A stretch of DNA of 64,000 nucleotides from NCBI GenBank assembly GCA_018266835.1, contig JAFDZP010000005.1:124001-188000 (forward strand), given 5' to 3'. This DNA is from Bacteroidota bacterium (GTDB lineage Bacteria; Bacteroidota; Ignavibacteria; Tepidaquicellales; Tepidaquicellaceae). Below, in pieces: positions 13,670-28,859 of this stretch; positions within the stretch are counted from its first letter, which is position 1; each line of letters begins with the position of its first letter. The notes beneath the pieces are model-generated. The model was not told the origin of the DNA, did not search any database, and worked only from the letters and a program-made list of their open reading frames with translations. Position numbers and translations under genes: made by a program.

Positions 13670-16669
13670 CTATTTGACAAGAATCATTTTCTTCGTCTCC
13701 ACAAAATTGCCTGCCTCTATTTTATAGAAGTATGTTCCGCTGGCAAAATTACTTCCGTTGAACTGTGCTTCATAAGTTCCTGCTGTCAGTTTTTCATTAA
13801 CAATATTATCGATTGCTCTTCCCGATACATCAAAGATTGTAATTTTTACAAATTCATCTTTCGGCAAGGCAAATTTTATTTTTGTCTGTGGGTTGAACGG
13901 ATTCGGATAATTCTGCTCAAGAGAATATTTACCCGGAATCTCATTCGAGAGATTAGAAATACCTGCTAACGTATACCACCCTCCGGAAAAACATTTAATT
14001 CTTCCATCTCTGCAGCCGGCAATAACTTCGTTACCGTTTGCGCCCATGTTAACATTTTCCAGCCTGTTTATATTATCTAATCTTGAAACTTTCTCGCATG
14101 CAAAATCAGTGCTGCCGCTTCCGAAAGAATAAGTGAATTTTACCGCGCCTGTATTTCCATTTAAGATATAAAAATTATCACCAAGTGTACCGCAGGCAAC
14201 AGATGCTTCCGTTAATGATCCGGGACCTGTTGGTCCGATAATGTCTGCGCCCATAACATAAGTAGCATCCAGATTATTATTCCAGATCGGTACTCCGTCT
14301 CTCGGATTTATTTTCACCATTTGCTTTGCTCCGTTGAAAATTGTAATCTCACCCAGATTTACATTGGGGTCCGGCCATATACCTTTATAGTATTTTACTA
14401 TTCCGTTTATACCTGTTCCAAATCCTGTAGAGTAAATTGAATTACCTGTTGCGCCATCTAGGACTGTAATTGTAGAAGTAAATCCTACAAGACAAGCTAT
14501 ATCAGGAATTGTATCTGCATTCACACTCGGAATACTTGTCATTCCCCAGATAACTGCAGGCGAAGTGTAAGACCATATTTGTGAACCTGAATTATTATAA
14601 CCTCTTATTGAATACGGTCCGCCGCTCTCTCCCATACCTACTGCAAATCCTGCTGACGTTGTAACTAAGTCATATGAAAATGTCTGAGGCATTGATGTTG
14701 TTAACATCGATTGTCCTGTTAATCCATTCAGAATAAAAATTGTTTTTCTTCCGGGAGGATTTCCGCCTGTTCCGTTTGCATCCATAAGTACATCGTTAAC
14801 TCCGTCACCGTTAAAATCTTTATCAACTTTTACAACGTTAACATCGCCGTCGCTGAAACTTACAGAATCTCCGAACTCCCAGATTTTCTTTCCGGTTCTT
14901 CCAGAGATAGTATAAACTTCTTCATTGCCGCCGCCTGTTCCTATTACTACATCAGGAATCCCGTCGCCGTCAACATCGCTTCTTACCTGCATTGCCTGCT
15001 CATAAGGAACAGAACCGCTGTTATTATTATTGTACCCTGAATTGAATGTCCATAATATATCAGTCGTAACCGATGAACCGCCGTTGTAACATGTTACAAG
15101 ATAGTTCGTCGATGCAACTAAAACGTCATTTATACCGTCTGCATTAACATCGTTTATTTGTTTAATTGAAATAGGTTTAAGATCTGCAGATGTTGAGTAA
15201 GGATTTACAGGTACAGTTCCTTCCCATAAAATTTCACCAAGTGTACCGGTTGAGTTTGCTCCTGTTCCTGTAACTTTTAATCTCTGAACTGAACCATTAA
15301 CTGCATTTGAATTTATTGAAATAGAATCTGCATAGCTTGTAGCTGTTGTAGGATTAAACCAGATTCTTAATTGCTTCGTTTTCTGTGTATCGATAACTAT
15401 CGGGAATGTAAGTCCTACGGTATCAAGTCTGAATCTTGCACCTGCAAAAGATGCTGAAGTTATATTCAATGTCTGGCTTCCTGTATTTGTTACATTAAAT
15501 AAATATCCTGATGTACATCCAACTCTTCTTGTACCGTAAGCATAAGTATTTGCGCTTAATGTTAAGTAAGCGCCGCTGTAAACACCTTTACCCTTAAGCT
15601 GAACTTGTTTAACAGGTGTACCGCCGTCATTTGAAGCGATATATAATATACCTGAAGTAGTATCGTAAACTGTCGGAGTAAATGTAACTGTGTAATTTTT
15701 TTGCTGACCTGCTAAAATAGAATCAGGTGCATTAGGAGAAATTGTATATCTCGGATTTGAAATATTAAATGAATTCAATTTCAGAGTAGCTGTACCTGTG
15801 TTCTGAATAGTAAGAGTCTGCGGATTTGGAGTGTTTAAAATTGTGTTTCCAAAATTAATAGTTGCAGGAGCAGCTATAACCGGATTGCCGGCCCCGGATA
15901 AAGAGTATTTATAAAGAGTTGAATATGAACCAACGGTATTCCCTATTCTTTGCGCCAAGAGATAAAGATTTTGTCCGTCGTAATACATTCCCCGTGGAGA
16001 GTCTGAACCGTCAGGGTCAGGTCCCGGGAAAGAAAATATAGTATCCCCTACAGCTTTTCTGAATGCAAAAATTCTTTCAGGCTCGCTGCTGAAATTATCG
16101 TTTACATATAAAATGGTGTCACCTTTAAATGCAATACCCTGTGCCTGTTTACATCTAAGAGGAATTGAGTCAACTTTCAATCTTGATGTTAAGTCTATAG
16201 CATACGCCCATGTGAATGGATAAGTAGTAACTTCAGGATAATAAACTGTGAACCAGATTTTATTATTGTTGATTGTTAGTCCGCCGATGCCCTGCGCATA
16301 TGTTCCTGTTACAATGCTGTCAACTTTTACACCTGACATATTTATTTTATAAAGCTTTGCTCCGTTGCTTGTAAAATCCTGAGCAATCCAGAACCCGCTG
16401 CCATCCCATGCCATACCGTGATTAAATCCGTAAGGCATTGCAATGCTATCGAGTATCTGAGCTGTTCTTGTAATTTTATAAATCTTGGCAGGTATAGAAG
16501 CTCCTGCATTATCATAATCTGAACCAACCCATAGTGTATCATTCTTAGCAGTTATTCCCCAGAGAAAATTATATGAACCGTAATTGGGAAAAGGATATGA
16601 TGAAACTAATGTCTGGCTGAAAATATTTTGTGAGAGAAGAATTAATAAAAATAGTAGTAACTTTTTCAT
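13670..16669 (-). CDS. Secreted T9SS cargo with VCBS/FG-GAP repeats and an ASPM-SPD-2-Hydin-like domain
   Basis: A 999-residue exported protein. Residues 1-18 (MKKLLLFLLILLSQNIFS) are a signal peptide. The N-terminal third resembles a beta-propeller. Around residues 265-470 two ASH-type immunoglobulin-like repeats are seen (FGNTILNTPNPQTLTIQNTG). The segment about 500-880 has VCBS/FG-GAP-like motifs (INDVNADGINDVLVAS, DVDGDGIPDVVIG, DFNGDGVNDVLMDA) with Ca-binding-like Asp clusters. The last 85 residues are a type IX sorting domain with NYPNPFNPQTKIKFALP, cleaved on export. It is probably attached to or released from the cell surface; the ligand is unknown. A strong terminator follows. Confidence 0.88.
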   Translation of the reverse strand: MKKLLLFLLILLSQNIFSQTLVSSYPFPNYGSYNFLWGITAKNDTLWVGSDYDNAGASIPAKIYKITRTAQILDSIAMPYGFNHGMAWDGSGFWIAQDFTSNGAKLYKINMSGVKVDSIVTGTYAQGIGGLTINNNKIWFTVYYPEVTTYPFTWAYAIDLTSRLKVDSIPLRCKQAQGIAFKGDTILYVNDNFSSEPERIFAFRKAVGDTIFSFPGPDPDGSDSPRGMYYDGQNLYLLAQRIGNTVGSYSTLYKYSLSGAGNPVIAAPATINFGNTILNTPNPQTLTIQNTGTATLKLNSFNISNPRYTISPNAPDSILAGQQKNYTVTFTPTVYDTTSGILYIASNDGGTPVKQVQLKGKGVYSGAYLTLSANTYAYGTRRVGCTSGYLFNVTNTGSQTLNITSASFAGARFRLDTVGLTFPIVIDTQKTKQLRIWFNPTTATSYADSISINSNAVNGSVQRLKVTGTGANSTGTLGEILWEGTVPVNPYSTSADLKPISIKQINDVNADGINDVLVASTNYLVTCYNGGSSVTTDILWTFNSGYNNNNSGSVPYEQAMQVRSDVDGDGIPDVVIGTGGGNEEVYTISGRTGKKIWEFGDSVSFSDGDVNVVKVDKDFNGDGVNDVLMDANGTGGNPPGRKTIFILNGLTGQSMLTTSMPQTFSYDLVTTSAGFAVGMGESGGPYSIRGYNNSGSQIWSYTSPAVIWGMTSIPSVNADTIPDIACLVGFTSTITVLDGATGNSIYSTGFGTGINGIVKYYKGIWPDPNVNLGEITIFNGAKQMVKINPRDGVPIWNNNLDATYVMGADIIGPTGPGSLTEASVACGTLGDNFYILNGNTGAVKFTYSFGSGSTDFACEKVSRLDNINRLENVNMGANGNEVIAGCRDGRIKCFSGGWYTLAGISNLSNEIPGKYSLEQNYPNPFNPQTKIKFALPKDEFVKITIFDVSGRAIDNIVNEKLTAGTYEAQFNGSNFASGTYFYKIEAGNFVETKKMILVK

Positions 16670-17399: not shown

Positions 17400-19613
17400 C
17401 TATTTTATAAGCACCATCTTTCTTGTTTCTACAAAACTGTTTGTCTCAATTTTATAAAAATATGTTCCGCTTGCTAATCGCGCGCCATCGAAATCGGTTT
17501 CGTAAACTCCTGCCTGCAGTCTTTCATTAACTAATTCAGAAACAACTTTTCCTGATAAGTCATACACAGTAATTTTCACAAATTCATCCTTCGGTATTTC
17601 AAATTTTATTTTTGTAACAGGATTAAAAGGATTCGGATAATTTGTATATAGCTTATGCTCAGTTGGAATTACTGATGAAATATTATTTACTCCGACGGTA
17701 TGAGTTTTAATTGTAAGAATTCTTATTTCGCTTGTGAGTGAATCAGCATTAAGATAAGAAGTCGCTGCCCATCCGCAAAGAACTGAATCCCCTGTTACTA
17801 CAAATAATGCAGCAAGCGAATCCAGCTTACTCTTCGTGACTGTAAACCGAGCAGCTTTACCATTTGAATCTGAAGGAAGAGAAACAAACTGCCCGCCGAT
17901 TTTTTTAATTTTGAATTTATAATTTATCTCAGGAAGAGTCCCTGAAGGAGTCCAGCTGAAAACAATCTTCGATGTATCTATTGGAGTTGTTGTAAATGCC
18001 GTTGAGTTAGCAGGAGAGATTAAACTCACACCTGTCATTGTTGCCTTAATGGTAAAGACATTATCGACTGTATCTGCAAGAGAAGGATTGCCTGCATCAT
18101 AAATTTTTATTTTACAATTTGAGCTTGTAGAAATATAAGGCACTGTCCATACATAATAATGCTGCTGAGCAGGAACATTTGTTGCAAGTGAAGTCCATGA
18201 AGTTCCGTTATTTGTAGTCAGGTCAATATTAAAGTTTGCTGTTGAAGAAGTCCCCCAGTATAAGTACTGCTGAGTGCTTGTAGCAAATGATTCCCCGCCT
18301 TGTGGAAAAGATAAAAGTAAAGCATTAGGAGCAGCAGATATGCACGAAGAATTTTCTGCGCTTGTTCTTATAAGCGCTTTAGGCAGCGGACCGAAGCCTA
18401 ATCTTAAATCAATGCTGCCTGTCAGGTGGCAGTAACTCATAATTGTACCTACTCGCGGCTTGTTAGGACCGTTGTAACAATTGCCTTCTATAGTATAGCA
18501 AGTATCAATCGGACCGCCGGGCCAGCTGCAGTTATGTGTATGCGATGAACCAAAGTTATGTCCCATTTCATGTGCAACAACCATTACGTCCCATGAGTAC
18601 AGTGGCAGCGGACTGTACGCCCCAATAATATTACTGAAACCGTAACCGTTGCCGTTAGTTGGTGAATTGCAAAGAACATCAACAAATGCAATGCCTCCAA
18701 GTCCGCCTGTTCTGCGTGTAATAAAATGCGCAAGTGTTCTGTTCACACTTGAGAAGTGTCCGTTCCAGTAATTTGTAAACTGAGTAAGAAGCGCATTGGA
18801 AGTTGTTCCTGTGTACGGGTCAGTTGTAGTCCATATATTTATAAATGGCACAACAATTTTTACATTTATATCCCTGTTATAAATTGCAGAGACAACACTG
18901 AACAGCGCAAGTGTATTTGCAGTGGTATTCGGGATTGATGAGCCGTAAGTTGCGTATGTTATTTTATCTATTTCAACAGCAATATTTGCCTGAAGAAAAG
19001 TATTGCTCACTATATCGGGGTTCAGATTTTCCATTTCGTGCTTAACTCTTTCAGGAATTCCAAACGCCTCGCTTCCGCAATGAAAATCATTTTTCACAAG
19101 CAGCTTGCTGTTCTCATAAAGAATGCAGTCATCAGATAAATTATTTTCATCAAGTGTTGAAAGCGCGTAAGTATTATTATCTGTAATAAGAATTCCTTTC
19201 ACAAAAGTTTCCGACACACAAATGATTGCCATTGAGTTCATATCGTTATTATAAATTCCTTTGTAACATTTGAATGGAACGTCTGCCTTCATTGTTTTCA
19301 TTCCGTTTTCAGTCATTTCGTTTATCACTGCATCAGGAGTAAGAATATTATACTCAGTCAGTTTCAAATCTGCACTTATATTTTCATCAACGGGAATTGT
19401 AAGATTTAAAAATTTTGAAGATGAGCTTAATATCTGACGGATAGCGTCTTTATTTACTGTGAGAAATTTCGGAGCGCTTACTTCTTTTATATACTTACCT
19501 GATAAGTTCTGAGCCTTTGATGTGGCAGTTTTGGTGAATAGCGGTAAATTTTCACCGTAAGAACTCACAGGTAAATACAGCAATACAAGTACAAGGAAAA
19601 ATAATTTTTGCAT
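17400..19613 (-). CDS. Secreted reprolysin-like zinc metalloprotease, T9SS-exported
   Basis: A 737-residue exported protease. It begins with a signal peptide (MQKLFFLVLVLLYLPVSSYG) and a prodomain-like region. The catalytic zinc motif HEMGHNFGSSHTH (HExxHxxGxxH, about residue 348) is followed by the Met-turn IMSYCH, defining a metzincin of the M12B/reprolysin type. Fibronectin-like beta domains follow (about 430-640). A type IX sorting domain with NYPNPFNPVTKIKFEIP closes the protein and is very similar to that of the 999-residue neighbour. It probably degrades extracellular protein for nutrition; the substrate is unknown. Confidence 0.92.
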   Translation of the reverse strand: MQKLFFLVLVLLYLPVSSYGENLPLFTKTATSKAQNLSGKYIKEVSAPKFLTVNKDAIRQILSSSSKFLNLTIPVDENISADLKLTEYNILTPDAVINEMTENGMKTMKADVPFKCYKGIYNNDMNSMAIICVSETFVKGILITDNNTYALSTLDENNLSDDCILYENSKLLVKNDFHCGSEAFGIPERVKHEMENLNPDIVSNTFLQANIAVEIDKITYATYGSSIPNTTANTLALFSVVSAIYNRDINVKIVVPFINIWTTTDPYTGTTSNALLTQFTNYWNGHFSSVNRTLAHFITRRTGGLGGIAFVDVLCNSPTNGNGYGFSNIIGAYSPLPLYSWDVMVVAHEMGHNFGSSHTHNCSWPGGPIDTCYTIEGNCYNGPNKPRVGTIMSYCHLTGSIDLRLGFGPLPKALIRTSAENSSCISAAPNALLLSFPQGGESFATSTQQYLYWGTSSTANFNIDLTTNNGTSWTSLATNVPAQQHYYVWTVPYISTSSNCKIKIYDAGNPSLADTVDNVFTIKATMTGVSLISPANSTAFTTTPIDTSKIVFSWTPSGTLPEINYKFKIKKIGGQFVSLPSDSNGKAARFTVTKSKLDSLAALFVVTGDSVLCGWAATSYLNADSLTSEIRILTIKTHTVGVNNISSVIPTEHKLYTNYPNPFNPVTKIKFEIPKDEFVKITVYDLSGKVVSELVNERLQAGVYETDFDGARLASGTYFYKIETNSFVETRKMVLIK

Positions 19614-19728: not shown

Positions 19729-22632
19729 TTATTTTATTTTTTCATCAAGTACTGCAGACAAAATTTCTTTTCTGTTTTTAATCCATTCCAGGAATAAACC
19801 ATTTGCGGATTTTTCTCTTTGATTCAATACATCTATCAGATTATACTTTATTACTTCTTCGTAACTTATATTCTGATTCAATATTTTATCGAAAACTTCT
19901 TTAAATTTATTTTCTTCCAGTGCAGAAATTGAATACACAAACTGCTGGAAGGCAAGCCTGTCAGATGTGAATCCCGATATATCTTTATCAGTTACTTCAT
20001 TTTGATTCCAGTAACTTTTCAATGCTTCAGATGCAATAAATCTTGGTCCGTAATAATCATTGAACAAAAGTTTTTTATATGCTTCAAAACTCTGAGGTGA
20101 TTTATAATTCTTCAATGCATGGGCAATATCTTTATATAAAATTTTGTTGTCAGAATCTTCGTTTACTAACTGCAAAAGTCTATCTGACATCTGATTGATA
20201 AACCCTGAATCATAAGTTGTATCAAGTATAATTTTTCCTAATGCATTTATTGCAGAAGATCTTACTCTTACATTTTCATCATAAGTTAGTTCATACAATT
20301 CTTCTTTAGCAGATGAATTCCTGGTCTCGCCAAAAAGATAACAGATAAATGAAAGCTGATTATCGTTTAGCGATGCTAACTTAACTCTCATGTTAGGTTG
20401 AATTCCTGATTTTGACCTTAATGTTTTCCTGATTTCACTTTTAAAAACCTCTGCCATAGAGTAACCAATTTTAAAAGCAAGATTTCTTAAAACAAGACTT
20501 ACCCTGTGGTCATCTGTATCCAAATATTTTAAAATATATTCTGCGGTGTTAATGCTGTCTTCAACTAATTTATTAAATCCGTACTCCTGCCATTTAGAAA
20601 ATCTTGGCTCGATTGTTTTTGCCATTACAAAATATTCTTCAAGCGAATAATTTTTTGAAGTGTTCACTTCTACTTTATAATTATCTCCGCTGACCTGATT
20701 TGGAATTTCATCCTGAGAAGGATAATCATTGAATGAACCCCATAACGACCCATTGCTTATTGTGCTGTCATATCCCGGCTGTGAATAAAAGTCCGTTCCG
20801 CTTCCGTCAAGAAATATTCCAAGGCTGCCGTACTCTCTTCTTGGATTTCCATATCCTCTGCAATTGCCCGGCTCTTTATTTAAGTATCCGTCCCTTCCCT
20901 CTTCATCTATGAACATTCCTATTCCGTTTGCATTACCTGCTCCCTGTGAAAGCGAGTAAGCTGAATAATTATCATTTCCTTTTTTGTCATACAGTAAACC
21001 GAAGCCGTAATCATGTCCGCAACCCTGCGAAACTCCGTCCGACTGATAAAAATCCCAGCCTTCATCATCTTCAAGCAAGCCGACAGCCAAGTGAATGCCC
21101 GCGCCTTGCGCATACTGATAACTGTTATATTTATCGTTGCCTTTTTTATCAATAAGAACTCCTAGACCGTACCAGTAACCGCCGCCCTGTCCGAAAATAT
21201 CTGTATTGTAAACGTCATTGCCTTCGCAGTCAAGCAGCAGACCGATTCCTCCCGCATAGTAAGGACGAAGACCGAGTCCGTATCCCTGGCACATTGAAAC
21301 ATAATGGTCTTCATATCTTCCGATATCAAGTGAGTGAGGAGAAATTAAATAAGAGTCATTCCCTTTTTCATCTATAATTGCGCCGATTCCCTGAGTCATT
21401 CCAAATGCCTGCGAGCATGTATTTGATATATACATATCGTTTCCGTTTTTGTCATACAACAAACCAATGCCGAAACATCCTGCTCCCTGTGAGAACGCAT
21501 TTCCCTCGTAAATATCATCACCTGCTTCATCGTAAAGTAAACCAATGCCGCCGATGGCTGCGCCGAGCGAACCGTTCTTTGATTTGTAAACATCATTGCC
21601 TTCTTTATCAAAAATCATTGAAGTGGAAAACACTGCTCCTGCCAAGCCGAAGTCATCGTATGTATTATAAAAATCATTTCCGGCAAAATCCATTATGCAC
21701 TGAAAATTATTTCCTGTAAGGATTTCATTCTTCATATTGTAAACATCATCACCGCCGATATCGATTATTAAATCAAAGTGTCCGTTGTAAATATTTTTTC
21801 CTTCCGTGCCAATTGCAATACGAACGTCTCCGTCATCGTGATAGTAATAAAAATCTCCATCAACGTATTGATTGGAGATGTATTGTTTAGGAAGATTTTT
21901 TAATAGAGAAATTTTCTCCTTCGCATTTTCATATATATTCAAAAAATCATTTGAAGCCCAAATAGAATTTTCAAGTATTCTTACTAAATCAAGTTTGGAT
22001 AACAGGTCTAAAGTTTGGCGAGATATTTTCCAAGAAGAATCTCTTGATGTATTAAATTTGAAAATGTCCGAATTATTATCATCGGTTCCATCTTCGGTGT
22101 CTTCGATTATTGAAAACAAATTTTTCTTTAAGAATTTAAGTTCCTCAGAATTAAATTTATCATTTAAAAAAAAGATTTCACCAGCTCTGTAATCATAAAC
22201 ATTTCTAACTGCATCTCCAAAAAGATTTTTTAAAATTTGTGGTTCATTTGAATCAATAGTTTTAAGTGACCTGAGTCCCCTAATAGTGTGTAATTGATAA
22301 TTTTGAATAATCTTGTAATAAAAGTTATCTAAAATTTTTGATAAATTAAATTTATCCATATCTTTCATCTCCTCCATAAACTCAAAAGATTTCAACGGAG
22401 ACTCCATAATCTCCTTTACTTTCAGTAATAATAACTTCGATTGATTCGTCGGTGATTTATCTTTATCGGTCGTAATAGGAATGGTAATATCCTTCTCGCT
22501 CAGTCCTCTGAAAGAAAGAGTTTTATCAAGCTTGGAATGAATATTTTCCTGCGTATTTTGCTGAGCAAAACCGGAAACAAATACAGATGTTATTAGTATT
22601 ATAAGTAATAATTTCATAAGCGGTTTAATCAA
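19729..22632 (-). CDS. Secreted protein with twelve D-x-x-G-N-D-x-Y repeats and C-terminal HEAT-like helices
   Basis: A 967-residue protein of unknown function. It starts with a signal peptide ending near FVSGFAQQ. Residues about 290-615 hold twelve copies of a repeat built as D-x-x-G-(N/D)-D-x-Y, then a variable loop, often SQGAG, then GIGLLYD (for example LYDKNGNDMY, LIDKKGNDKY, FIDEEGRDGY). Successive copies are commonly 26-29 residues apart. The regular Asp/Gly/Asn pattern suggests a calcium-binding beta-solenoid, by inference. The last third has helical repeats like HEAT repeats (VRVRSSAINALGKIILD). There is no type IX sorting domain, so it may stay in the periplasm. The gene is divergent from the heptose kinase. 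Confidence 0.8.
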   Translation of the reverse strand: MIKPLMKLLLIILITSVFVSGFAQQNTQENIHSKLDKTLSFRGLSEKDITIPITTDKDKSPTNQSKLLLLKVKEIMESPLKSFEFMEEMKDMDKFNLSKILDNFYYKIIQNYQLHTIRGLRSLKTIDSNEPQILKNLFGDAVRNVYDYRAGEIFFLNDKFNSEELKFLKKNLFSIIEDTEDGTDDNNSDIFKFNTSRDSSWKISRQTLDLLSKLDLVRILENSIWASNDFLNIYENAKEKISLLKNLPKQYISNQYVDGDFYYYHDDGDVRIAIGTEGKNIYNGHFDLIIDIGGDDVYNMKNEILTGNNFQCIMDFAGNDFYNTYDDFGLAGAVFSTSMIFDKEGNDVYKSKNGSLGAAIGGIGLLYDEAGDDIYEGNAFSQGAGCFGIGLLYDKNGNDMYISNTCSQAFGMTQGIGAIIDEKGNDSYLISPHSLDIGRYEDHYVSMCQGYGLGLRPYYAGGIGLLLDCEGNDVYNTDIFGQGGGYWYGLGVLIDKKGNDKYNSYQYAQGAGIHLAVGLLEDDEGWDFYQSDGVSQGCGHDYGFGLLYDKKGNDNYSAYSLSQGAGNANGIGMFIDEEGRDGYLNKEPGNCRGYGNPRREYGSLGIFLDGSGTDFYSQPGYDSTISNGSLWGSFNDYPSQDEIPNQVSGDNYKVEVNTSKNYSLEEYFVMAKTIEPRFSKWQEYGFNKLVEDSINTAEYILKYLDTDDHRVSLVLRNLAFKIGYSMAEVFKSEIRKTLRSKSGIQPNMRVKLASLNDNQLSFICYLFGETRNSSAKEELYELTYDENVRVRSSAINALGKIILDTTYDSGFINQMSDRLLQLVNEDSDNKILYKDIAHALKNYKSPQSFEAYKKLLFNDYYGPRFIASEALKSYWNQNEVTDKDISGFTSDRLAFQQFVYSISALEENKFKEVFDKILNQNISYEEVIKYNLIDVLNQREKSANGLFLEWIKNRKEILSAVLDEKIK

Positions 22633-22689: not shown

Positions 22690-23685
22690 ATGAATTTAAA
22701 AGACTTAAACTCCATATTTTCACAGGCAAACGGCAAAAAAATTGTCGTTATCGGCGATATAATGCTCGACAGATATTTGCTTGGAAACGTAACTCGCATT
22801 TCACCGGAAGCGCCCGTGCAGGTATTCGATATCGGTACATCGGAAAACAAACTCGGCGGCGCAGCAAATGTTGCTTACAATATTAAAACTCTAGGAGCAG
22901 AACCGCTTTTAATCGGCGTCTGCGGAAACGATGACGAAGGCAAAATTTTAAAAAATGTTTTTAAAGGACTTGGAATAAACACAGACGGAATAATCTGTGA
23001 AGAGAACAGAAACACAACTTGCAAGACAAGAGTAATTGCAGCGGCGCATCATCTTATAAGATTAGACAGCGAAAGCAGAACAAGTATTTCAGATGAATCA
23101 AATAAAAATGTTTTATCGCTTCTTGAAAAAAATAAAAATGAATTTGAAATAATTATTCTTGAAGATTATAACAAAGGTGTATTAACAAAATCTCTAATAC
23201 ATTCTATTATTGATTTTGCAAAAAAGAATAACAAAAAAATTCTTGTCGATCCTAAGTTTGAAAACTTCTTTGAGTACAAAGATGTCTTCTTATTCAAGCC
23301 GAACAGAAAAGAACTTGAAGATGCAATTTTAAAAAGAACATCAGATATCGAAGAGCTTATTGAACAGGCTATGGAATTTATAAAAAAATTAAATTGCAAA
23401 AATTTAGTTCTGACTTTAGGCGAACACGGAATGTTACTTATTGAAAATGATAACGGTGTAATTGAAATAGAAAGAGTGCCGACACAAGCAAGAAAAGTTT
23501 CAGATGTATCCGGCGCAGGCGATACGGTTATCTCTACAATTGCAGTCTGCCTTGCAGGCGGAGCATCAGTAAAGGATAGTGTCATAACGGCGAACATTGC
23601 TGCGGGACTTGTAGTTGAAGAAGTAGGTATAGTTCCGATTGAAAAAAATAAATTAATAGAGCATATCTCGGAGAACGGAAATTAA
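22690..23685 (+). CDS. rfaE1: D-glycero-beta-D-manno-heptose-7-phosphate kinase
   Basis: A 331-residue PfkB/ribokinase-family sugar kinase that phosphorylates heptose-7-phosphate at position 1 for LPS core synthesis. The N-terminal IGDIMLDRYLLGNVTRISPEAPVQV is diagnostic of the RfaE kinase domain. GGAANVAYN binds sugar, and the PfkB signature VSDVSGAGDTVISTIAV near residue 272 carries the catalytic Asp. In many bacteria this is fused to the adenylyltransferase; here the two halves are separate genes. The next gene's ATG overlaps this stop by one base. Confidence 0.95.
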   Translation: MNLKDLNSIFSQANGKKIVVIGDIMLDRYLLGNVTRISPEAPVQVFDIGTSENKLGGAANVAYNIKTLGAEPLLIGVCGNDDEGKILKNVFKGLGINTDGIICEENRNTTCKTRVIAAAHHLIRLDSESRTSISDESNKNVLSLLEKNKNEFEIIILEDYNKGVLTKSLIHSIIDFAKKNNKKILVDPKFENFFEYKDVFLFKPNRKELEDAILKRTSDIEELIEQAMEFIKKLNCKNLVLTLGEHGMLLIENDNGVIEIERVPTQARKVSDVSGAGDTVISTIAVCLAGGASVKDSVITANIAAGLVVEEVGIVPIEKNKLIEHISENGN

Positions 23686-24137
23686 TGGACTCAGTATTTG
23701 AAAAAATTGCAGCACTGAAAAAAGAAGGAAAGAAAATAGTTTTCACTAACGGAGTATTTGATATAATTCATCGCGGACATGTTGCATACCTTAATGAAGC
23801 GAAAGCGCTTGGTGATTATTTAATTGTCGGACTTAACGCAGATGCATCTGTGAAAAGATTAAAGGGAGATTCACGACCTGTTAATAAAGAACAGGACAGA
23901 AAATTTGTAATGGAAAATCTTAAAGCAGTTGATGACGTAACAATTTTCACTGAAGACACTCCGTTCAATTTAATTTCAAAAATCATTCCCGATATACTAG
24001 TAAAGGGCGGCGACTGGAAAGAAGACCAGATCGTCGGTAGTGATATTGTAAAACAAAACGGCGGTAAAGTATTCAGCCTTAAGTTTATAGATAACTACTC
24101 AACCACAGGAATAATAGAAAAAATAATCAAGCTTTAA
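23685..24137 (+). CDS. rfaE2: D-glycero-beta-D-manno-heptose 1-phosphate adenylyltransferase
   Basis: A 150-residue nucleotidyltransferase producing ADP-heptose for LPS. The cytidylyltransferase-like signature TNGVFDIIHRGHVAYLNEAK includes the HxGH-type motif (HRGH, about residue 30). NADASVKRLKG and the C-terminal YSTTGIIEKI are typical of the RfaE second domain. Its ATG shares one base with the stop of the kinase gene, so translation is coupled. Together with the kinase it shows that this cell makes a heptose-containing outer-membrane glycolipid. Confidence 0.95.
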   Translation: MDSVFEKIAALKKEGKKIVFTNGVFDIIHRGHVAYLNEAKALGDYLIVGLNADASVKRLKGDSRPVNKEQDRKFVMENLKAVDDVTIFTEDTPFNLISKIIPDILVKGGDWKEDQIVGSDIVKQNGGKVFSLKFIDNYSTTGIIEKIIKL

Positions 24138-24152
24138 TAGAATATAAGCTGA

Positions 24153-27100
24153 ATGTCAGATAACGATATAGAAAATATCACAAACCCTAAGCCACCTGAT
24201 GAGCCGAAGCAAGAAGAGTCTAAAAAAATTGAGTCATCAGAGAAACCTATTAAAAAAAAGAGAAGCTTCTTAGGAAAGCTTTTCAGATTTTGCTTATATA
24301 CTTTTCTTGGCTTTCTTATTTTCTTAATCGGATTATTTTTCTTCCTTCAGACTTCATTCGCAAAGAACTGGATACTTCATTACGCAATAGATAAAGTAAA
24401 TGAATCATTAGTCAGCAAGCAAAGCCGCATTGATGCAGAGTCAATTGAAGGCAGCATCATCAGTGGACTCAGATTAAATAAAGCTAGCGTCATTGTAAAA
24501 AGTGATACATTACTAAAATTAAATTACATCGAGCTCGGCTATGACTTATGGGGAATCCCTAACAAGAATGTTTATGTAAGCAAAGTTATTCTTAATAATC
24601 CTACAATAAATCTTACCAAGGTAAATTTCACAAAAGATAGCCTGATGTGGAATCTTAATTATATTTTAAGAAGCGATAAAGAAGAACCCGAAGATACTAC
24701 TAAAAAACCATTTGACTGGAAGATAACTGCAGATAAAATTGAGATCGTTAATGGTAACTTCAGAATTCTTGAGAATAAAAATTCAACTCTGCCTATCGGT
24801 CAAATTCCCGTTACCAACATTGAGCACTTCGGAATAAAGAATCTTTTTGTTAAAAATTTTAACTTAGAGCTTGCAGCAAAAATTTATCCTGATGTAAAGA
24901 GTGTAGATATTAAGAAAATTAATTTTTCAACAAATTCAGCACTGACGGTAAAGAACTTAAGCCTGCAGGCAAAGCTTCAGAAGAATAAATTTACTCAGGT
25001 TACAAATTTAAATCTTACCACCCCGCGGACTAAAGTTGATATAAAGACTGTTCAGCTTGATGACTTTGACCCGCTTGAACAGAAAGTTGAATACGAAAAA
25101 TTCGATGACAGAATAATGACAATCGATTTATTAACTGATAAGTTCGATTTTGATGATCTGAAATTTTTTCTTCCTGATTTAGATTTCCTTGACGGACGCG
25201 TATATTTAAACTTCAAAGCGAAAGGAAAGTACAACAATTTTGCTCTGGATAAACTTTATCTGAAAACGGATAATTCTGTTTATGATTTTGCAGGTACTAT
25301 AAAAAACCTAGATGAGCCGTCAAAACTTTATCTTGATATAACATCCAACAAATCTGAAATTGACCCTATTGATACTAAACTCATTATTCCCGGACTTCCC
25401 GTCCCTGACTACAGCCACTTAGGAAAAGTTTACGCTGATTTTCATTTCGTAGGTGAGCCGACAGATTTTACTGCTGATATTGATATCAATTCATCGGCAG
25501 GAAATATTTCAGGTAAAGGTTCATTGAATCTTAAACCTAACGAAGCAGTTTATAAAGGCAATTTTAAAACGAACAGTTTCAACTTAGGAAAGGTCCTTAA
25601 AGAAAAAAGTTTAGAAGGAAATATAACCGGTGAGATAAATGCTGAGGGTGTAAGCTTCGACTACAAAAAAATGCGTACAAAGCTGGTGTATGATATCCGC
25701 GAGAGCAATATATTCGAGCAGCATATAAATAAATCCTCAGGTACAATTATTTTAAATAATGGCACTGCTGATTTGAATGTTATCTATAATACAAATTACG
25801 GGAATAGTTCTGTAGATGGTAAAGTAGTGTTCAGAGATTTTAAGAATTTGCAATATGATGTAAAAGGTAATATTCAAAATCTTAATATAGCCGGCATTAC
25901 AAAAAACAGCGCGCAGGAAAGTAACCTGAACTTTACTTATAATATAAAAGGCAACGGTACAACATTAGCCGGAATTACCGGTGACTTTCAGTTGAATTTC
26001 TCAAAATCTTACTATGCTAAATACCAGATACCGGAATCACCAATGACGGGATTCATCCATAAGAATGGAGACTCGACTGATATTTCTTTAAAATCTAATT
26101 TCCTTGAACTACGCGCATCAGGACTTTATTCATTAGCCACTTTGCCTATAGTTGTTGCATCTAATATTGAAAAAGTCTCATCGAATATTGGTCAAATTTT
26201 TGCAAAAGATTCTGTTACTCAAAACGTCTCAATAAAAATTGATAGTACAATCAGGCGCTCATTCAATACTCAGGTTACTGCAATTCCCGATAGTTTCAGA
26301 TTTACTTATGATATAAAAATAATTGACTTCAAACCGATTGCATCTTTAATTCAGTACAATGATTTAGATATTATTATTGATATGAAAGGCAGAGTTGCAA
26401 ACACAAATAATAGATTTGTATTTGCAGTTGATACAGGGAAAGTTACGAAATTAGTTTATCAGGATTCACTGCTGAGAGTTTCCAAGGCGAATTTATCAAT
26501 GAGAATCTCAAGCAATAATAAACAGAACATTAACGGAGTAAATGCACGGATAAATTTTGTTTCTGATTCACTAAGAGTTATCGGTACTAAATTCGACAGC
26601 ACGTATTTATTCGTGAACTACAGAGATAACAATAATACTTTTATTACGCGTCTTGTAAAAGATTCTACATTACAATTTGGTTCAAAGGGGAGATTCACAC
26701 TTGACCCTATACAATCGGTTTTCATTGTTGATAGTCTTGCTTTCAAAGCAGGAAAATATTTATTCAGAGATACAGACTCATTGCTCTTCTATTTCGTAAA
26801 TGACAATGGGGAAAGATATTTTGATGTAAAACATTTCAGGCTTGAGCAAGGAAGGCAGCGGGCTAATATTGAAGGAGTTTATTCATTAGACGGCAGCAGT
26901 GATATAAAAGTAACATTAAATAATCTAAGCATTGCAGAAATTCAAAAATACATTAAGCCTGGTATTGAACCTGAAGAACAAATAAGAGGTAACTTCCGAC
27001 GTGTTGAAGTTGTGTTTAAAGGTGATTTGAAAAATCCCCTTTTCCATTTCGAAGCTAACTCAGACATGTTAAGCATGGGTAATACTTCTATTGGTAGAAT

Positions 27101-28859
27101 TGATGCTCTTGCCGATTACAAAGAATATAAACTGATTCCTGATATTGCCTTCTATAATCAGAGTAACGTTGGTAATGCAAAGATAACAGGAAACTTCCCT
27201 ATCTATTTATCTTTCACAGATGCCGATACTGCAATTATCAGAGAGAAGATGCAGACTGACCTTATAAAATTGAATCTTGCAGCAAACAATTATCAGATAA
27301 GAATTATAGAGCAGATACTTCCTTTCACTTCAAATCTTGCCGGAACGCTTAACGGAAAAATTGATATCGGCGGAACAAGTTCTAAACCTCAGCTTACAGG
27401 AGCTATGACTGTAAGAAACGGTTCATTTAATGTCGACCTCACTAAAATGTATTATAGATTTGAAGCAGATATGTCAACTGAAGGACAAAAACTATTGTTG
27501 AATAATTCAAAACTCTATACTCCCGATGAAGACAGCAGATTTATAACTACTACAGGTTATATTGATTTCAGTAATCTGAAATTAAGTGATATTGATTTAT
27601 ATATGACTGGTGATGTAAAACTATTTGATAAAAATAACGGTAATACAGATTTAGGTTTGATGGGAGATTTATACGGGGGAAGCGGTACTCCCCAGCTGCA
27701 CTTAAAGGGCAATGATCAGTCAATGCTGCTAAATGGAAATCTTACATTGAAAAAAGGAAACATAACAATAAATCCTTTCCAGCAGGAAACTCTTGATCTG
27801 TACGCAGATGATTTTAATTACAAGCTTGTATATGATTCAACTTCATTTATGGCTGATAGTTTATTATATTATGTTTCAAAGCTGACTGACAGTATAAAAC
27901 AAAAAAATAAAAAGGAATGGAATCCTTTCGAACGTTACATTATTGCACAGGAAGATTCGAGCTTGAACAAACCGATTCCAAGAAGTTCATTTATTTATGA
28001 TATAGTTGTTACCAACGAAACACCGATATTTTTGAGATTTATTACTAACCCAAAGTACAAACAGGAATTTTTCGGTGACGTTAATATGAATTTATTTGTT
28101 GATAATAGAAGTACCGGAAACATGGAAGCTAGAGGCAATGTGATTTTAGGAGACAACTCTTATTATAAATTTTATAAAAACTTTAAAGCAAGCGGAACAG
28201 TTAAGTTCAACGGACCAATAAAAAATCCGGAGCTTGATATTCAGGCAGAATATTCCGGAACAGTTCCTTCTGATAACCCTACTGAAGCTCCTATAAATGT
28301 AGATTTGCAACTAGCTGTTACCGGAGATGCAACGAATCCTAAATTGGAATGGAAGTTATATAAAGCAGGAGTTCTGGATAACTCGGCAGATCCTTCTCAG
28401 CAGGCAATTAGTTTTATTTTATTTGGTACATTAAATTTAAATGCCTCACAACAGGTTACACTTGCTTCAACTGTTGGCGCGAATGTTGGTTCAGTAATTT
28501 TATCGAATTATTTTTCTTCGTTCATACAAAATATTTTACCGTTCATTGTAAATACTGATATCAACTATGTAAATTCTCAGTCAGGTTCAATTGCTCAAAA
28601 TACGGATATAAGAATTACTGCTGAGTTCGGTGATGCAGTAGTCAGAGTCGGCGGTCAGGTATTCGATAATGTTGGTAATACAAGTTTTGTAATACAATAT
28701 CCTTTGGGAAAACTTTTAAATCTTAAGGGTATCTCAAGTAATTTATTTATTCAAATTGAAAGAACTGTAGATCCTTTAAACTCAACAAGTTCAAATCTGT
28801 CTCTGGTTTCATCAGATATCAGAACTGGAGCTACAATTTATTATAGAATTAAATTCTAA
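24153..28859 (+). CDS. tamB: TamB-like translocation and assembly module protein
   Basis: A 1568-residue envelope protein. A charged cytosolic N-terminus (about 50 residues) precedes a single membrane anchor (LYTFLGFLIFLIGLFFFLQ, about residues 49-67). Then comes a long beta-rich repeat region of AsmA/TamB type that forms a hydrophobic groove across the periplasm. The C-terminal ~400 residues match the TamB (DUF490) domain, including GNVILGDNSYYKFYK and AISFILFGTLNLNASQQ, and end in the beta strand YYRIKF. The family moves phospholipids to the outer membrane and assists some outer-membrane proteins. The start lies 15 nt after rfaE2, so it is probably in the same operon. The stop is followed at once by the rnr reading frame. 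Confidence 0.92.
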   Translation: MSDNDIENITNPKPPDEPKQEESKKIESSEKPIKKKRSFLGKLFRFCLYTFLGFLIFLIGLFFFLQTSFAKNWILHYAIDKVNESLVSKQSRIDAESIEGSIISGLRLNKASVIVKSDTLLKLNYIELGYDLWGIPNKNVYVSKVILNNPTINLTKVNFTKDSLMWNLNYILRSDKEEPEDTTKKPFDWKITADKIEIVNGNFRILENKNSTLPIGQIPVTNIEHFGIKNLFVKNFNLELAAKIYPDVKSVDIKKINFSTNSALTVKNLSLQAKLQKNKFTQVTNLNLTTPRTKVDIKTVQLDDFDPLEQKVEYEKFDDRIMTIDLLTDKFDFDDLKFFLPDLDFLDGRVYLNFKAKGKYNNFALDKLYLKTDNSVYDFAGTIKNLDEPSKLYLDITSNKSEIDPIDTKLIIPGLPVPDYSHLGKVYADFHFVGEPTDFTADIDINSSAGNISGKGSLNLKPNEAVYKGNFKTNSFNLGKVLKEKSLEGNITGEINAEGVSFDYKKMRTKLVYDIRESNIFEQHINKSSGTIILNNGTADLNVIYNTNYGNSSVDGKVVFRDFKNLQYDVKGNIQNLNIAGITKNSAQESNLNFTYNIKGNGTTLAGITGDFQLNFSKSYYAKYQIPESPMTGFIHKNGDSTDISLKSNFLELRASGLYSLATLPIVVASNIEKVSSNIGQIFAKDSVTQNVSIKIDSTIRRSFNTQVTAIPDSFRFTYDIKIIDFKPIASLIQYNDLDIIIDMKGRVANTNNRFVFAVDTGKVTKLVYQDSLLRVSKANLSMRISSNNKQNINGVNARINFVSDSLRVIGTKFDSTYLFVNYRDNNNTFITRLVKDSTLQFGSKGRFTLDPIQSVFIVDSLAFKAGKYLFRDTDSLLFYFVNDNGERYFDVKHFRLEQGRQRANIEGVYSLDGSSDIKVTLNNLSIAEIQKYIKPGIEPEEQIRGNFRRVEVVFKGDLKNPLFHFEANSDMLSMGNTSIGRIDALADYKEYKLIPDIAFYNQSNVGNAKITGNFPIYLSFTDADTAIIREKMQTDLIKLNLAANNYQIRIIEQILPFTSNLAGTLNGKIDIGGTSSKPQLTGAMTVRNGSFNVDLTKMYYRFEADMSTEGQKLLLNNSKLYTPDEDSRFITTTGYIDFSNLKLSDIDLYMTGDVKLFDKNNGNTDLGLMGDLYGGSGTPQLHLKGNDQSMLLNGNLTLKKGNITINPFQQETLDLYADDFNYKLVYDSTSFMADSLLYYVSKLTDSIKQKNKKEWNPFERYIIAQEDSSLNKPIPRSSFIYDIVVTNETPIFLRFITNPKYKQEFFGDVNMNLFVDNRSTGNMEARGNVILGDNSYYKFYKNFKASGTVKFNGPIKNPELDIQAEYSGTVPSDNPTEAPINVDLQLAVTGDATNPKLEWKLYKAGVLDNSADPSQQAISFILFGTLNLNASQQVTLASTVGANVGSVILSNYFSSFIQNILPFIVNTDINYVNSQSGSIAQNTDIRITAEFGDAVVRVGGQVFDNVGNTSFVIQYPLGKLLNLKGISSNLFIQIERTVDPLNSTSSNLSLVSSDIRTGATIYYRIKF

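Follow-up and report, generated by a model that had tools for sequence, protein, structure and literature searches.

The gene analysed here encodes a predicted twelve-coil beta-solenoid with 27-residue coils, whose coil number is nearly fixed across phyla, and this solenoid type is obligately linked to one particular HEAT module. It was found in a 64,000-nucleotide stretch of a Bacteroidota genome (the window), with a single copy of the gene in that genome, and it represents a widespread and apparently undescribed bacterial family. The protein may be an exported, calcium-stiffened solenoid that carries a pocket where an envelope ligand is bound or acted upon and is aided by the HEAT module, a reading to which we give even chances.

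Gene architecture and export

The gene comprises 967 codons and starts with TTG, an alternative ATG being present at codon 6. Its features, all located on the minus strand, are the following:

19729-22632, minus strand: whole gene, 967 aa, with signal segment, helical N-domain, beta-solenoid and HEAT-type C-domain (open reading frame and homologues)
22561-22632, minus strand: N-terminal hydrophobic signal-like segment, aa 1-24 (sequence)
21892-22545, minus strand: helical N-domain, aa 30-247 (AlphaFold2 model and alignment of relatives)
20725-21885, minus strand: beta-solenoid core, aa 250-636, twelve coils (AlphaFold2, core pLDDT 93.4, pTM 0.92)
20785-21762, minus strand: twelve DxxGxDxY motifs, aa 291-616 (pattern count and self-comparison)
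21010-21411, minus strand: candidate functional site, aa 408-541 (invariance across paralogue subfamilies)
21259-21345, minus strand: 20-residue insertion in coil 6, aa 430-458 (alignment of relatives and model)
20686-20715, minus strand: linker joining solenoid and C-domain, modelled with low confidence, aa 640-649 (AlphaFold2 model)
19750-20643, minus strand: HEAT-type C-domain, aa 664-961 (HEAT_2 match, domain alignment and model)

The N-terminus consists of the hydrophobic export segment MKLLLIILITSVFVSGFAQQ, and a hydrophobic 10-mer occurs inside the first 60 residues in 69 of 76 relatives. A lipobox is lacking, and the C-terminal YPNPFNP-type sorting domain of the neighbouring genes at 13670-16669 and 17400-19613 is absent from it. 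Based on these features, the protein is exported and probably soluble in the periplasm. The sequence-only reading had called it secreted; the N-terminal segment agrees with export, and "exported" is the better wording, since the protein lacks its neighbours' sorting domain.

The pattern D..G.D.[YF] occurs twelve times, with starts at aa 291, 315, 342, 368, 394, 421, 468, 495, 522, 549, 576 and 609 (DNA 21762 down to 20785), against a mean of 0.07 and a maximum of 2 in 20,000 composition-shuffled versions of the protein. Self-identity is highest at lags 27 and 54; the coils are divergent (20% identity at lag 27), and within each coil the Asp and Tyr of the motif are kept in 94-100% of 72-76 relatives. 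The twelve repeats first described as D-x-x-G-N-D-x-Y are thus present under a looser signature, the strict GND being found in only 7 of the 12 and the exact SQGAG, first given for the loops, in two coils only. Their length had been put at 26-29 residues; the spacing is mostly 26-27, with gaps of 24, 33 and 47 residues, the longest of which holds the 20-residue insertion. In contrast to adhesins, which gain and lose repeats, homologues across phyla keep coil number and spacing almost constant, and this is therefore not a variable repeat protein.

Predicted fold and comparison with known calcium solenoids

With 71 relatives aligned, AlphaFold2 modelled the whole protein at a mean pLDDT of 87.3 and a pTM of 0.85, as a helical N-domain (residues ~31-245), a beta-solenoid (~250-636) and an alpha-solenoid (664-961). 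In the N-domain, D48 and P79 are kept in 99% of 70 relatives. A possible over-confidence of AlphaFold2 on perfect repeats weighs less in this case, given the divergent coils and the 72-76 homologues used. The layout proposed from the letters alone was borne out, the helical N-domain by this model, the HEAT-like C-domain by the alpha-solenoid together with HEAT_2 matches, and the beta-solenoid by two confident models, of the whole protein and of the core. The latter was modelled separately, since with the full model Foldseek found only armadillo and alphaRep proteins, owing to the HEAT part. The conserved site, the separate HEAT gene and the spread of the family over phyla were absent from the sequence-only reading.

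Foldseek searches of the PDB with the core model gave no match at E 0.001. Among the 22 PDB matches at E 10 or better, nine were chains of RTX-type calcium folds, all with E above 1; these weak matches were to MpAFP regions IV and V, CyaA RTX block V, the S-layer protein RsaA and an alkaline protease, the last two of which are known RTX-type calcium folds. The top match, MpAFP region IV (PDB 3p4g), was non-significant (E 1.3), with a TM score by target of 0.43 and of up to 0.54 for another chain.

The absence of a named family, as first supposed, agreed with all profile searches. Pfam yielded a sub-threshold HEAT_2 in the C-domain of the 967-aa protein and nothing else, NCBIfam no meaningful match, and Pfam searches with twenty diverse cores no convincing family, the RTX repeat included. 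No solved relative was found among PDB sequences with either the protein sequence or the core profile, and literature searches returned no description of the family. Weak matches to cytochrome c3 (profile search of PDB sequences) and to NUP210 (Pfam, diverse cores) were attributed to chance, and a viral origin was rejected, with neither a relative in IMG/VR nor a fold match in BFVD at E 0.001.

Like the RTX calcium beta-roll (GGxGxDxUx, PF00353), the solenoid is extended and exported, and its nonapeptide-like turn has Gly at position 4, Asp at position 6 and, at position 8, a residue that is large and hydrophobic or aromatic. However, position 1 is Gly in RTX and an invariant Asp here, RTX repeats form two turns per 18 residues whereas the solenoid has one per 27-residue coil, and the N-terminal signal-like segment and the non-repetitive conserved site set it further apart. 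That the protein is a true RTX member, exported by type I secretion, is very improbable: the three nonapeptide positions in common and the weak matches to MpAFP, RsaA, CyaA RTX and alkaline protease would fit such an origin, but searches at E 1 gave no PF00353 match in the 967-aa protein or in 20 diverse members, the core profile found no RTX chain among PDB sequences at E 10, and the protein has its signal-like segment at the N-terminus, in place of a C-terminal type I signal, and ends in an alpha-solenoid. On sequence, RTX membership has thus already failed. By analogy, the RTX nonapeptide positions 4, 6 and 8 kept in DxxGxDxYx, together with the enrichment of RTX-type folds among the weak Foldseek matches, make calcium stabilisation plausible. 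As in RTX-type folds, the two invariant Asp of each turn would bind one calcium per coil and stiffen the rod.

A further comparison is with MpAFP region IV, a calcium-bound right-handed beta-helix of thirteen 19-21 residue repeats with the consensus xGTGNDxuxuGGxuxGxux (PMC3492233). It shares with the solenoid one calcium-type turn per coil, the GND core and a coil whose second part is long, but its consensus coil has 19 residues against 27 here and there is no sequence match. Being the top, although non-significant, fold match, it raises the idea of an ice-binding solenoid, which we regard as scarcely credible: ice binding requires a flat repetitive Thr/Asx array (PMC3492233), and this face is absent from the repeat consensus, in which the corresponding turn position is not Thr. 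In addition, the conserved face is non-repetitive and includes His, Trp and Arg.

A candidate site in coils 5 to 9

Nine residues outside the repeat consensus, located in coils 5-9 (Q408, Q449, R456, Q482, Y486, W487, H514, H540 and D541), show no variation in 20 of 20 sequences drawn from across the paralogue subfamilies. Within the main type (72-76 relatives), D436, R439, Y440, P457, D478, Q506, Y507, Q509, C538 and R598 are invariant as well. The coil-6 insertion includes several of these positions, namely D436, R439, Y440, R456 and P457, in addition to the near-invariant H443. Coils 7-10 have the lowest column entropy (1.14-1.21); it reaches 1.35 in coil 6 and ranges from 1.5 to 2.2 in the flanking coils 1-5 and 12. 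Relative to the first Asp of their coils, Q482, Q509 and Q536 fall at +14, Y486 and H540 at +18, and W487, H514 and D541 at +19. As same-register positions stack in a solenoid, the invariant residues should neighbour each other, and they resemble a site for binding or catalysis. Since the paralogues do not keep C538 or most residues of the insertion, the chemistry of this candidate site may differ between subfamilies.

We infer that Q482/Q509/Q536, Y486/W487, H514 and H540/D541, at matching register in consecutive coils, would be part of one pocket, which R456 would join and to which D436, R439, Y440 and H443 of the insertion might also contribute. Such a pocket would bind, and probably chemically alter, a cell-envelope ligand, most likely a glycan, with the HEAT module docking a partner or keeping the pocket in place. 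Right-handed beta-helix enzymes (pectate-lyase-like lyases, glycosidases and epimerases) carry their catalytic residues across consecutive coils and a long loop. The catalytic-looking set of His, Asp, Arg and Tyr spread over consecutive coils and a long loop would be analogous to this arrangement, but the coil signature differs, and no supported family-profile (Pfam, PDB) or Foldseek match to right-handed beta-helix carbohydrate enzymes was obtained. More tentatively, and with less than even odds in its favour, the family could form a new class of exported enzymes, inherited across many FCB-group phyla, with an active site built from the stacked coils of an asymmetric calcium solenoid and obligate pairing with a HEAT module.

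The same residues can be read in other ways. The protein, being exported, could be a purely structural or adhesive rod, a rigid scaffold in which the invariant residues merely hold the coils together through a Gln ladder and aromatic stacking. Several of the invariants are indeed Gln at a single register (+14), as in the Asn ladders of other solenoids. However, scaffolds tend to vary in repeat number, which is nearly fixed here, and to lose invariance outside the consensus, while the invariance of His, Asp, Arg and Trp is limited to some of the coils; we find this explanation rather unlikely. A serious alternative to a glycan pocket, judged unlikely as well, is a metal site in which H514, H540 and D541 would make up a two-His-one-carboxylate centre that holds Fe, Cu or Zn and may or may not be catalytic. 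The two His and the Asp are invariant in every subfamily and occupy adjacent register positions in neighbouring coils, but no metal-related neighbour genes were found in the loci examined. The nine invariant residues provide a short list for mutagenesis.

HEAT module, family spread and gene neighbourhood

The HEAT_2 match in the C-domain of the 967-aa protein (E 6e-5) lies below the Pfam cut-off and rises to E 1.9e-15 in a relative. This HEAT profile and the helical repeats of the model place the domain in the HEAT superfamily, as an alpha-solenoid of the type found in HEAT and PBS-lyase HEAT-like proteins (PF13646, PF03130). It differs from generic HEAT proteins by its own signature outside the HEAT repeats (LFIxASt...PAxxxLV...LxTxxxRE) and by co-occurring with the solenoid only.

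In Zixibacteria and WOR-3, the solenoid protein ends after the solenoid, and the HEAT module is encoded by a separate gene directly downstream on the same strand. An adjacent HEAT gene was found at 32 of 37 such split (short-tailed) loci against 0 of 42 fused loci; three of the five split loci with no HEAT neighbour stop at a contig edge. The separate HEAT protein is of the export type, and it is the same domain as the fused C-domain, the non-HEAT N-terminal signature included (hhalign E 2e-45). With a profile of this module, full-length matches (193 bits or more) were obtained exactly once per genome in 10 genomes that carry this solenoid type and not at all in 12 other genomes, 10 of which showed no solenoid and 2 only other solenoid types; the remaining matches, at 75 bits or less, were to generic HEAT proteins. 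Its restriction to genomes with this solenoid type indicates that solenoid and HEAT module work together, and the split and fused forms thus point to a direct, testable interaction partner, the HEAT protein. In a tree of the core, a mostly split Zixibacteria/WOR-3 side is opposed to a mostly fused Ignavibacteria side, the dividing branch being weak (76/95). An exception to the split/fused rule is an Eisenbacteria protein (L128:5579-8179), which has about 230 extra N-terminal residues and neither a HEAT tail nor an adjacent HEAT gene.

Searches of genome contigs with the core profile revealed at least 562 confirmed loci. The record titles of the best 80 of these name Ignavibacteria, Chlorobiota, Kapabacteria, Bacteroidota, Zixibacteria, WOR-3, TA06, Stahlbacteria, Eisenbacteria, Calditrichaeota, Neomarinimicrobiota, Gemmatimonadetes and Fermentibacteria; an Armatimonadetes record, which hardly differs from one of Chlorobiota, is possibly a mislabelled bin. 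The family counts more than 560 loci, spread over ten or more phylum-level groups, and has neither a Pfam or NCBIfam entry nor a solved relative; some of its residues are as strictly conserved as those of an enzyme. It would contribute a novel type of coil to the calcium solenoids and may indicate an undescribed envelope function in little-cultured lineages.

The core was matched in 67 of 148 relatives, some of which have up to three paralogues with the same core and different flanks. One paralogue type (L041-L044) carries an N-terminal PDZ domain (E 9e-9) before the solenoid and has no HEAT C-domain; the genome of its member L042 (G052) is also devoid of the HEAT module. In an Ignavibacteria-class relative (G085, L040:4383-8315), a RibD deaminase-reductase encoded upstream continues in frame into the solenoid protein, for a total of 1311 aa; the fusion may be genuine or reflect the loss of a stop. 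This arrangement is absent from L038, of the same genus.

In the loci examined, no conserved neighbour other than the HEAT gene gave a hint of the substrate. Neighbours encoding YprB-like nuclease, HDOD, response-regulator and pilin proteins recur only within single phyla and were rejected as functional clues. In the window, a divergent group (22690-28859) begins 57 bases from the solenoid gene and comprises an rfaE-type kinase, an rfaE-type nucleotidyltransferase and a TamB-like gene of 1568 aa. This gene order recurs in the sister genome L051 only and was set aside for that reason. Next to the solenoid gene, positions 17400-19613 encode a secreted zinc metalloprotease-like protein (HEMGHNFGSSHTHNC) with a C-terminal sorting domain, and a gene of similar length occupies its place in L051.
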